A DNA stretch of 64,000 nt, taken from the NCBI RefSeq assembly GCF_023195915.1, contig NZ_JALPRP010000001.1, positions 1,488,001-1,552,000 of the forward strand, written 5' to 3'. Source of the stretch: Methanoculleus sp. 7T. Lineage in GTDB: Archaea; Halobacteriota; Methanomicrobia; Methanomicrobiales; Methanoculleaceae. The position numbers and the translations under genes were made by a program. The notes under the pieces are model-generated. The model made no database searches and had not been told where the DNA came from. It saw nothing but the letters and a program-made list of their open reading frames with translations. Positions 50,342 to 56,325 of this stretch are shown in pieces; position 1 is the stretch's first letter; every line of letters starts with the position of its first letter.

Positions 50342-50425
50342 CGGTGCATGTTTATGTTTCCATCGGCGACTGCAGAGTCCCTTCGGTGCGCAAACGTTGA
50401 AGGCCCGTGTTGCCGATTACCTCGT

Positions 50426-50902
50426 ATGGAGAAGAGATCGGAAGAAGCGGTCTCCCGCTTCATGCGGGGCTACAACTGCGCACAGGCGGTCAGTTCCGTC
50501 TTTGCGGCAGATGTCGGGGTGCCTGAAGAGGTTATCCTCCGGGCGGCCACCGGGTTCGGCGGCGGGATGGGGCACACCGGGGGTGCCTGCGGGGCAGTTT
50601 CGGGTGCGGTCCTCGTCCTCGGGCTCCTGTTCGGGAGCACCGGTCCTGACGGGAAAGCGGCGAAGGATGAGACCTACGCGCTCGTCCGGGAGTTCATGAC
50701 CCGGTTTGCCCTCCGGAACGGCGCCGCATCGTGCACCGAACTCCTCGGGTGCGATCTCTCCACCGATGAGGGGCTGGCGCGGGCTCGCGAGCAGAACCTC
50801 ACCCGGACCATCTGCCCCCGATATGTCCGGGATGCGGTGGAGATCCTCGAGGAGATCGTGGGGCCCCGGGATGTCACTTCCGGGCCGCTTCAGGCCCGGT
50901 GA
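50426..50902 (+). CDS. C_GCAxxG_C_C family redox protein
   Basis: 158 residues. The family's spaced cysteines are all visible: GYNCAQAV (about 18-25), GGACGAVSGA, ELLGCDL and TICPRYV. The conserved GCAxxG-like block (here ACGAVSG) and helical hydrophobic core match this family of small, possibly redox-active or metal-binding proteins of anaerobes. No signal peptide. The frame is open upstream into the degenerate tRNA repeat, which I exclude. Its end overlaps the convergent acyltransferase gene by 29 nt. Confidence 0.85.
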   Translation: MEKRSEEAVSRFMRGYNCAQAVSSVFAADVGVPEEVILRAATGFGGGMGHTGGACGAVSGAVLVLGLLFGSTGPDGKAAKDETYALVREFMTRFALRNGAASCTELLGCDLSTDEGLARAREQNLTRTICPRYVRDAVEILEEIVGPRDVTSGPLQAR

Positions 50903-52035: not shown

Positions 52036-52809
52036 ATGGACCCACTGGTTGTCGTCACGTTCGCCGTCGTCGCCCTGCTTGAGATCGCCGTTCCGCTCGT
52101 GCTCGGCTACTGGATTGTCCGGAGGTTCGGCGTCCCGTGGCGTATCTTCGGGCTCGGCGCCCTCTTCTTCATCGCCGTGCAGGTCATCCACACCCCGCTC
52201 GTCCTCGTAACGCAGGCCCCGCTCTACCTCGCCTTCCTGCCGATGGGCACGACGGCGGCCGTTGCGGTCCTCGCCGTCTACCTCGGCCTCCTTGCCGGGC
52301 TCTTCGAGGAGCTCGGCCGCTACCTCGTCTATCGCTACTACTTCAGGCGGCGGGGTATCGCTCTCACCCGAGAGAACGGCCTCCAGTTCGGGGCCGGGTG
52401 GGGCGGCGTCGAGAGCATGCTTGTCGCACTCATCGTCATCTCGGGCATGCTCTCCTACATCGCCCTCACCGGCGACGGGTGGTCGCTCTTCGTCCCCGAC
52501 GACCCTGCGGTCCAGGCCCAGGTAGAGGCCCTCCGGAGCCTCACCCCGCTCGACATCCTGCCCGGGCTTGCCGAGCGGATGATGACGATAACCCTGCACA
52601 TCGCGTGGTCGCTCTTGGTCCTCGCCGCAGTCGTTTACGGCAAAAAGTTGCTTCTCGTCCTCGCCGTGCTCTGGCACGCCGCCGTGGACGCCGCGGCCGT
52701 CTACCTCGTCCAGACGCAGGGGATTTTTGTGACCGAGGCGGCGGTCTTCGTCTTTGCCGTGCTCGGCCTTGCGTATATCCTGTGGGAGTGGAGGCGGCCG
52801 GCCTCTTAA
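52036..52809 (+). CDS. YhfC-type intramembrane metalloprotease homologue
   Basis: 257 residues with about eight hydrophobic segments. GLLAGLFEELGRYLVYRYYF carries the EExxR motif, and a later VLWHAAVDAAAVY supplies His/Asp, as in YhfC/CPBP-type membrane proteases. FGAGWGGVESMLV is also typical. Substrate unknown. The mature length is normal and no signal peptide is needed. Confidence 0.85.
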   Translation: MDPLVVVTFAVVALLEIAVPLVLGYWIVRRFGVPWRIFGLGALFFIAVQVIHTPLVLVTQAPLYLAFLPMGTTAAVAVLAVYLGLLAGLFEELGRYLVYRYYFRRRGIALTRENGLQFGAGWGGVESMLVALIVISGMLSYIALTGDGWSLFVPDDPAVQAQVEALRSLTPLDILPGLAERMMTITLHIAWSLLVLAAVVYGKKLLLVLAVLWHAAVDAAAVYLVQTQGIFVTEAAVFVFAVLGLAYILWEWRRPAS

Positions 52810-52834: not shown

Positions 52835-53725
52835 TCACCGGGACGCCGGCGGGACAGGCGTTACCTCTCCACGCTTCTCGCGGAACCTCACGATAGCATC
52901 CTCGGCCGCCCTCCGGACCACCGGATCGCTGTCCGAGAGCGACCGGGTGAGGGGTTCCTCCGCCCGAGGGTCGGCGATCTCGCCGAGGATGGCGGCCGCG
53001 TAGGCACGCCGAAGCCCCCGCCTCGTCCCGGCGTCCCAGACCATGCCGGGCGGAGGGGCCTCCGCCCTGACACCTGCCGCCCCGACCTCGGGGAAGAGGG
53101 CCTCGTGCTCCTTCACGCCGCGAGGACCGGCAAGGAGGTCGTGTTGAGCCAGGACCCTGTGCTGAAGGGCCCTCTTCTCGGGGGGTATGCCCTCGGGGCC
53201 GGCGAGAAGGTCGTGCTGGGTGATCCCTTCTTCCTCCTCCTCAAGGGCCCGCCGCCCGCGGGCTCGTCTGATATCCTCCGGGCCGCCGAGTATATCGTGC
53301 TGCGTAAGACCACCCATGTGCCGGAGACTCCTCTTTTCAGGCGGTATGCCCTCGGGGCCGGCAAGAAGGTCAAACTGCGTAAGCCCCTCCCTAGACACTT
53401 TCCGGGGGAGTTCATACCTCTCCGAGACCTCTGGGTGGAGAAGCAGGTCGGTCAACGGCTCGACCGCCGGTGTCCCGATCATGACAAGCGCGTTCGCCGC
53501 CCCCTCCCGGACACCCTGCACCGGATCGGCAAGAGCGCCGATGAGCGGGTCGACTGCCCTCCACTCGCCGAGCCTGCCGAGGCCCAAGGCGGCGCTCCGG
53601 CGGACAGTTGAATCGCCGCTCCGCAGCGCTTCGATCAGGCCGTCGACGTCCCGCTCCGACGCCATAAGGTCGACGTCATACCGCTTCTCCTCTGTTGAAA
53701 TATCCCTTCTCTGCACCACAATCAC
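52835..53725 (-). CDS. HEAT-repeat protein with inserted TQHDLLAGP peptide repeats
   Basis: 296 residues from GTG (starts at 53716 or ATG 53665 also possible). HEAT repeats at both ends (RRSAALGLGRLGEWRAVDPL, REGAANALVMIGTPAVEPL; later RAYAAAILGEIADPRAEEPL and VRRAAEDAIVRF). Between them (about 113-206) lie four copies of a ~19-residue motif: GLTQFDLLAGPEGIPPEKR, GLTQHDILGGPED, GITQHDLLAGPEGIPPEKR, VLAQHDLLAGPRG, spaced 24-28 residues, with an all-acidic EEEEE stretch. I know no family with this insert. A TATTATATAT promoter lies ~30 nt upstream. Scaffold or docking role is a guess. Confidence 0.75.
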   Translation of the reverse strand: MIVVQRRDISTEEKRYDVDLMASERDVDGLIEALRSGDSTVRRSAALGLGRLGEWRAVDPLIGALADPVQGVREGAANALVMIGTPAVEPLTDLLLHPEVSERYELPRKVSREGLTQFDLLAGPEGIPPEKRSLRHMGGLTQHDILGGPEDIRRARGRRALEEEEEGITQHDLLAGPEGIPPEKRALQHRVLAQHDLLAGPRGVKEHEALFPEVGAAGVRAEAPPPGMVWDAGTRRGLRRAYAAAILGEIADPRAEEPLTRSLSDSDPVVRRAAEDAIVRFREKRGEVTPVPPASR

Positions 53726-53883
53726 CTCTGGATAGGGCGCTATAACAGACCCTCGATATATAATACTATGTATAAAAAACGACAGATGGGATATCCGGGA
53801 TCGGGACCGTTCTGTACGTGGTTACTCTGACAAGAAAGGGGAACTGCAGGTATTTAACTCCACACGGCAAGGAGGATAGTATC

Positions 53884-56325
53884 ATGCCGGAGGAGAAGAA
53901 GAAGGCTGAACTGAAGATCTCGGGGATGCACTGTGCATCCTGTGCCTTGAACATAGAACGCGCCCTCCGTGACCGGGACGACGTCTACGACGCCCGGGTG
54001 AATCTTGCGGCCGAGACCGCCGTCGTCGAGTACGACCCGACGAAGGCCACCCTCGCAGACCTCGAACGGACGGTCGGCGACGCCGGCTACGAGATCGTCC
54101 GGAACGAGGTCACCGTCAAGATCGGCGGGATGGTCTGCGCGAGTTGCGCCCAGGTGATCGAGCTCTCGCTCACCGACCTCGACGGAGTCTATGCTGCCCG
54201 GGTCAACCTCGCCACCGAGACCGCGCACGTCGTCTACAACCCTGCGCTCGTCGGCATATCCGATATCAGGACAGCGGTCGAGGATGCCGGCTACCAGTAT
54301 CTGGGGCTTCTTGAGGAGGTCTCGGAGGACGCGGAAGCCCGGATGCGGGAAGAAGACCTCCGGGACAAGTTCCGGCGTTTCACCATCGGGTTTGCGGTGA
54401 GCATCCCGCTCTTCTTCGTCATGCTCTTCCGGGTGCCGGAGATGGTCGCTCTTCCGGTCTCGATCAACCTCATCATGCTCGTCATCACCGCTCCGGTCTT
54501 CCTCTATGTCGGCGCCCCCATCTTCAGGGCGGCCGCCGCCGCGCTCCGGAACCGGGCGCTGACGATGGACGTCATGTATGCGATGGGCATCGGCGTCGCC
54601 TACGGCGCAAGCATCCTCGGGACCTTCGAGATCGTCCTCACCCCGGCGTTCAACTTCTACGACACCGCGGTGATGCTCGCCTCATTCCTGACGCTGGGCC
54701 GCTATCTGGAGGCCCGGGCGAAGGGCAGGACTTCGGAGGCCATCAAGAGTCTGATCGGTCTCCGACCCAAGACCGCGACGGTGATCCGGGACGGGCGGGA
54801 GGTCGAGGTCCCGGTCGAGGATGTTGTCGTCGGCGACACCATCCTTGTCAGGCCGGGGGAGAAGGTGCCGGTGGACGGCACGGTCGTCGGCGGCGAGAGT
54901 TCGGTCGATGAGTCGATGATCACCGGCGAGCCCATCCCGGCCGACAAGCGGGAGGGCGACGGGGTCGTCGGCGGCACCCTGAACGTGAACGGCGTCCTCC
55001 GGGTCAGGGCCGAGAAGATCGGGAAGGACATGGTGCTCTCGCAGATCATCAAACTGGTTCGGGACGCTCAGGGTTCGAAGCCCCCGGTGGAGCGGATCGC
55101 CGACGTCGCGGTCTCCTACTTCATCCCGGTCGTCCTCGCGATAGCGACCGCGGCGTTTCTCATCTGGTACGTGGGGGCGGGCGCTTCCCTCCTCTTCTCG
55201 CTCACGGTGTTGATCTCGGTTCTGGTCGTCGCCTGCCCCTGTGCGCTCGGGCTCGCCACCCCGACCGCAGTGACCGTCGGGATCGGCCGGGGCGCCGAAC
55301 TCGGGGTGCTGATCCGGAACGGCGAGGCGCTTGAGGTCTCCGAGAGCCTGACCGCGGTCGTCTTCGACAAGACCGGGACGCTCACCCGGGGAAAACCGGA
55401 CGTCACCGACGTCGTCGCGTTCGGGATGCCGGAGGACCGGCTTCTCGCGCTCACGGCGGCGGTCGAGAAGAACTCGCAGCACCCGCTTGCGGCGGCGGTC
55501 GTGCGCCGGGCGGAGAGTGCCGGCGCCGCAATCCCGGGATCGGAGCGGTTCACGACCTTCGGCGGCAGGGGGGTCAGCGCAGTCGTGGAGGGCAACGAGG
55601 TGCTGATCGGGAACCAGCCGTTCCTTCTCGAGCATCGCATCGCCGTCCCGGCGGAGGCGGAGAGGAGGATAGCGGCCCTCCAAGACGAGGGGAAGACCGC
55701 GGTCCTGGTCGCAGTCGGGGCCGAACTTGCAGGCATCCTCGCCATCGCCGATACCCTCAAGGCAACGACGAAAGCCGCCGTCGCGGACCTGAAAAGGATG
55801 GGTTTAGAGGTGACGATGATCACGGGCGACAACGAGCGGACGGCAAACGCCATCGCTCGCGAGGTCGGGATCGAGCATGTCCATGCCGGGGTGCTGCCGC
55901 ATGAGAAGGCCCGGGAGGTGAAAGCCCTCCAGGAGCGCGGAGAGGTCGTGGCGTTCGTGGGCGACGGGATCAACGACGCCCCTGCGCTTGCACAGGCGGA
56001 CGTCGGCATCGCCATCGGGAGCGGGACCGACGTCGCTATCGAGAGCGGGGATATCGTCCTCATCCGTGACGATCTGATCGACGCCGTCGCGGCCATCGAA
56101 CTCTCCCGAAAGGTGATGTCGCGGATCAAGCAGAACCTCTTCTGGGCGTTCGCCTACAACGCGGCCCTCATCCCCCTCGCCGCGGGCGTGCTCTATCCCT
56201 TCTTCGGCATAACGTTCCGTCCGGAACTTGCGGCGCTTGCCATGGCGCTCTCGTCGGTGACGGTCGTCTCGCTCTCCCTAATGCTCAAGACATATATACC
56301 TCCGGCGAAGAGAGAGGCAGTATAG
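53884..56325 (+). CDS. copA: Copper-exporting P1B-type ATPase
   Basis: 813 residues. Two N-terminal HMA domains with [11 protein letters not shown] and [11 protein letters not shown], then the P-type core: CPC metal motif [19 protein letters not shown]-equivalent SMITGEPIP, phosphorylation site [17 protein letters not shown] (HP locus), MITGDN and [10 protein letters not shown]. It pumps Cu(I) out of the cytoplasm. TATTTAAC at 53851-53858 lies ~29 nt before the ATG, so the message is near-leaderless and the longer upstream frame is not used. A small YHS-domain gene follows after 14 nt. Confidence 0.96.

Follow-up and report, generated by a model that had tools for sequence, protein, structure and literature searches.

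Disordered scaffolds such as EPYC1 and CsoS2 repeat a short binding motif along a flexible chain and thereby bind multivalently. Among solved structures, the nearest in fold and sequence to the HEAT part of the protein described here are the alpha-Reps (e.g., 3ltj and 4xl5), which are artificial HEAT-like binders. Archaeal HEAT_PBS proteins are numerous, mostly of no known function. One of them is OE2401F, a Halobacterium taxis protein that was recovered with CheD and OE2402F in pull-downs (PMC2666748). The present protein, encoded by gene 1 on the minus strand of the window (the whole 64-kb stretch of DNA that was analysed), is likewise an archaeal HEAT_PBS protein, and OE2401F acts between other proteins (PMC2666748). 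In gene 1, this known fold is combined with a motif array that matches no known family among those searched. Related loci in GTDB were found in Methanoculleus (M. sediminis, M. chikugoensis, and metagenome-assembled genomes [MAGs]).

Gene 1 and the architecture of its product

Positions 52835-53725 of the minus strand form a single open frame of 296 codons. A broken frame was rejected, since gene 1 reads through without interruption in the window as well as in almost every orthologue. The observation of an inserted array was confirmed. Translation more likely starts at the GTG at 53716, codon 4 of the frame (three codons in), because it is closely preceded by a Shine-Dalgarno-like sequence and corresponds to an ATG in many orthologues; this placement came from the aligned upstream regions of ~32 orthologues. 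The same region suggests that gene 1 has its own TATA-like box and leader (Table 1). At the N terminus of the gene 1 protein of G005 (M. chikugoensis, L035), the stretch DIEHTASREDVD is duplicated around a Gly/Pro-rich linker.

Table 1. Positions of gene 1, its parts, and its neighbours, numbered within the window
Feature	Position	Strand	Remarks
C_GCAxxG_C_C putative redox-active protein (PF09719)	50348-50902	+	
YhfC-type intramembrane metalloprotease gene	52036-52809	+	convergent with gene 1
Gene 1, array-bearing HEAT protein	52835..53716	-	open frame; 293 aa; orthologues in 34 genomes including that of the window
Gene 1 stop codon	52835-52837	-	
C-terminal HEAT part, aa 229-282	52871..53032	-	AF2 helices, pLDDT mostly >90; alignment to longer proteins
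Motif-array loop, aa 110-207, four copies, between two HEAT repeats	53096..53389	-	pLDDT mostly <50; profile match coordinates
Repeat 4 (last) core QHDLLAGP, aa 191-198	53124..53146	-	best conserved copy
Repeat 3 core QHDLLAGP, aa 167-174	53196..53218	-	
Repeat 2 core QHDILGGP, aa 139-146	53280..53302	-	
Repeat 1 core QFDLLAGP, aa 114-121	53355..53377	-	
N-terminal HEAT repeats, aa 15-102	53411..53674	-	Pfam HEAT_2 1.1e-23; AF2 helices, pLDDT mostly >90
Shine-Dalgarno-like AGGTGAT (stretch GAGGTGAT)	53721..53727	-	kept in almost every orthologue
TATA-box-like element upstream of gene 1	53771..53779	-	conserved in orthologues (aligned upstream regions); putative promoter element
CopA-type copper P-type ATPase, two HMA domains, CPC motif	53884..56325	+	Pfam; divergent from gene 1

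The gene 1 protein consists of N-terminal HEAT repeats, an insert of ~100 amino acids, and a C-terminal HEAT part. It scored 83.8 bits against Pfam HEAT_2 (PF13646; cut-off, 27.7) and 48 against HEAT_PBS (PF03130; cut-off, 20.9), and thus by the curated sequence cut-offs is a member of both. The tandem antiparallel helix pairs of a HEAT solenoid were present in the predicted (AF2) model, and Foldseek aligned the HEAT rod with alpha-Rep and other HEAT-like folds. AF2 was applied to two homologues, the window protein and the longer protein of the sister genus; the HEAT helices had pLDDT values above 90 and the loop mostly below 50, and short helices occurred at several of the cores. The loop is therefore predicted to be disordered, a call made from a shallow alignment (31-42 rows) in which a structured element could be missed. 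Membership among the phycobilin lyases CpcE/F and NblB was rejected, as the protein reached 46 bits against an equivalog cut-off of 330, with similar shortfalls elsewhere.

Pfam, PHROGs, and PDB sequences contained no credible match to the array, and no paper was found for the motif strings. Thus, both parts of the original prediction on this point, a HEAT fold split by a peptide array and an array of no known family, were upheld by the HEAT_2 match, the AF2 model, and these searches. A second solenoid formed by the array itself, as a degenerate leucine-rich repeat (LRR), is barely credible. It would account for a weak profile match to the Leptospira LRR protein 4u08 (E value of 0.0016 for the whole sequence and 0.19 for the best single stretch), which has a similar period of 23 residues. 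However, the spacing of the array varies from 23 to 29, the inner leucines and conserved Asn of the LxxLxLxxN consensus are absent when the repeats are read, no Pfam LRR family matches, and both AF2 models leave the array disordered and free of strands; the LRR assignment was therefore rejected.

Repeats, copy number, and constraint

The four inserted repeats originally described were recovered, with the core refined to [LI]-[TA]-Q-H-D-x-[LF]-[GA]-G-P and a true repeat length of ~23-29 amino acids. Self-similarity of the insert was far above chance, the best 14-residue window scoring 75 against a maximum of 42 in 300 shuffles. A degenerate DNA pattern of the core matched four times in the window versus 0.02 expected from shuffles, and in the whole 2.6-Mb genome it matched only these four sites in gene 1. 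In the last repeat, H186, Q191, H192, D193, G197, P198, and H204 were invariant across 31 aligned orthologues, although the motif expression used for the column statistics forces Q, G, and P, so that their full conservation is partly by construction.

Copies 1 and 3, which had been taken as a recent duplication or conversion, are indeed alike (89% identical in protein), and EGIPPEKR occurs in these two copies only, in the window protein as well as in the matching copies of near relatives. Recency was not fully borne out: over 18 codons the two copies are 81% identical in DNA, and their likeness is common to the relatives G002, G025, and G018. Because ~10 of 54 bases differ and the likeness is shared by these relatives, the event is older. 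These data fit an old exchange followed by occasional homogenisation better than a fresh duplication in the window's genome. In G002, where the two copies are 93% alike in DNA, homogenisation may still be going on.

An array profile search detected the gene, once per genome, in 34 of the 232 genomes of the order, namely, in 32 of 35 Methanoculleus genomes and in two genomes of a sister genus, g3, and nowhere else among the 232. The array was likewise not found in any further genus among 393 genomes sampled from the phylum. Across the order, the QHDxxxGP DNA pattern fell almost exclusively within gene 1; two other genomes had single matches, probably by chance. Gene 1 is absent from G012 and G031 and decayed in G034 (L044), where copA has an intact start and the remnant next to it has stops, frame breaks, and a single degenerate repeat. 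IMG/VR viral contigs, phage records, and plasmid records contained no credible match to the array, and an origin from a virus or mobile element was unsupported.

A comparison of copy number between strains had been proposed; the close equivalent carried out here, between species, revealed two to five copies. Complete Methanoculleus genes carried two copies in G021, G022, G023, and G024, three in G005 and G006, four in seven genomes including that of the window, and five in 18 genomes; both g3 genes also carried five, and the gene of G029, cut by a contig end, stands outside these counts. Copy number differs by entire repeats from the interior of the array, and the end repeats are mostly kept: the first is of the Q-V/I/F-D type in most Methanoculleus, the last is of the LAQHD...EHEAL type, and both are generally retained.

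Such whole-unit changes between species, together with the similarity of copies 1 and 3 in one clade, would be expected of a minisatellite spacer that is neutral or under weak constraint and gains and loses units by recombination. We regard this explanation as highly improbable and already largely contradicted, because constraint is tighter on the cores than on the HEAT scaffold and looser on the spacers, and the array has been kept across two genera despite silent-site divergence (pS of ~0.33-0.65 among Methanoculleus species). For pooled Methanoculleus pairs, pN/pS was lowest in the cores (0.12-0.22), against 0.25-0.40 for the HEAT repeats and 0.30-0.43 for the spacers; these figures are relative measures, as the pairs are non-independent and the expression forces Q and GP. 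The contrast between core and spacer was consistent in every repeat tested. This result indicated that purifying selection is stronger on the cores than on the spacers or the HEAT repeats.

The array-free paralogue and the neighbouring CopA gene

Methanoculleus has two HEAT genes. Gene 1 bears the array; gene 2 is full length and lacks it, with a short TGPGG-TWE linker at the corresponding site. Members of g3 have a single longer gene (431-432 amino acids, ~eight HEAT-like repeats) that bears the array, and G001, from another genus, has a full-length HEAT gene beside copA with a short linker and no array. The C-terminal part of the gene 1 protein aligns to repeat 4 and then to the last repeat of the long proteins, so that ~123 residues are skipped. 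It is therefore apparently a fusion of these two repeats of the sister-genus and paralogue proteins, and relative to both, gene 1 appears to have lost ~four HEAT repeats in frame. Hence, the HEAT parts are ordinary, as first described, in being confidently predicted HEAT repeats but not in their apparent loss of ~four repeats. In a maximum-likelihood tree, the array proteins of both genera grouped together (98% UFBoot). Despite this, the AU test rejected no alternative order of events (p = 0.66, 0.35, and 0.35), and duplication before and after the split of Methanoculleus and g3 are therefore both compatible with the data.

The apparent shortening of the rod also bears on whether the cores might dock in cis, or homotypically, on the HEAT groove of their own or another copy, leading to autoinhibition or self-assembly. 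Alpha-solenoid grooves commonly bind peptides, and within the window's genome the motif occurs only in the gene 1 protein, so partner and motif may share one protein. Against this, the cores lack high confidence in both AF2 models, and the rod that would receive them has itself apparently been shortened; on balance we think such docking unlikely.

Gene 2 was seen in 28 of the 32 genomes with gene 1, the four exceptions being incomplete MAGs, whereas the three genomes that lack an intact gene 1 (G012, G031, and G034) yielded no gene 2; a crude, hand-calculated Fisher test that ignores phylogeny gave p ~0.005 for this co-occurrence. It follows soon after gene 1 in most relatives and lies ~233 kb away in the window's genome. 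In G014 (L019 / L042; minus strand, 128-1996), gene 1 has a frameshift close to its end, so that a single frame of 623 amino acids runs on into gene 2; this may reflect either faulty assembly or a natural joining of the HEAT genes. The gene 1, gene 2, and g3 proteins share a proline-rich tail that closes with P-[AT]-S-R or similar (e.g., VPPASR, SPPTSR, PPPTSR) and may be another short motif.

In the related loci compared, the CopA gene adjoins gene 1 divergently across genera. A literature search found no paper linking an archaeal HEAT-like repeat with a copper ATPase. This conserved neighbour raises the question of whether the array, with its histidines, serves the CopA exporter by binding or buffering a metal (copper?), and six of the seven histidines of the window protein indeed sit in the loop, with H186, H192, and H204 of the last repeat invariant in 31 orthologues. 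Several features disagree with such a role, however. The loop has no Cys and few Met; the core His gives way to V, I, or F in the majority of first repeats and to Q in certain copies, whereas Q, D, G, and P are kept; and gene 1 apparently has its own TATA box, with no shared palindrome or copper operator for gene 1 and copA identified by eye in the aligned intergenic region. CopA is also present in genomes without gene 1, and any link between gene 1 and CopA is therefore optional. A metal-binding loop thus seems rather improbable.

A candidate docking loop and its relation to known systems

The reading that we prefer, with a rough probability of 0.55, is that the HEAT scaffold carries a multivalent linear-motif loop that serves for docking and is specific to this lineage; anatomy, selection, and disorder were computed, and docking is what we infer from them. 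Gene 1 would encode a short HEAT alpha-solenoid, with the disordered loop of ~100 amino acids projecting from a turn between two HEAT repeats and bearing two to five copies of the [LI][TA]QHDx[LF][GA]GP motif. Each core would form a short helix with GGP as its cap and would dock as a peptide on a single surface of the partner. The copies would act multivalently, with the HEAT rod as a scaffold or tether and avidity tuned by copy number. The docking role originally suggested for QHDLLAGP is thus plausible, since the cores are more constrained than their surroundings and the region is predicted to be disordered. The most likely candidate partners are a soluble domain of the neighbouring CopA or the full-length paralogue encoded by gene 2, a gene that is usually nearby and that was seen in no genome lacking an intact gene 1. 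Points against a docking loop are that G012 and G031 manage without gene 1, that the G034 copy has decayed, and that no known linear motif was matched in the protein-family, structure, and literature searches.

A fuller history, which we offer tentatively and consider doubtful as a whole, is that a HEAT scaffold was duplicated, and that one copy kept or gained the array, lost HEAT repeats, and now assembles a complex with the paralogue or CopA, the number of motif copies setting the stoichiometry. Gene 1 could give an archaeal HEAT family a first function. The variants with two, three, four, and five copies, the paralogue without an array as a control, the outgroup G001, and the genomes that have lost gene 1 form a natural test set, useful for studying the origin and tuning of scaffolds with multivalent linear motifs in archaea.

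Compared with the described systems, gene 1 is familiar in its fold and distinct in its loop. The HEAT_2 and HEAT_PBS models match its N- and C-terminal parts significantly, in agreement with the paired helices of the AF2 model, but leave the disordered motif array, about a third of the protein, uncovered. Alpha-Reps, unlike gene 1, are designed proteins without a loop array. For OE2401F, the consulted part of the report mentions no array and places the gene in a che/fla context, in contrast to copA for gene 1 (PMC2666748). The feature that marks EPYC1-like scaffolds, a repeated conserved core within a predicted disordered region, was found in the gene 1 loop. The loop would work like EPYC1 and CsoS2, an analogy in the way of working, with no sequence relation known.
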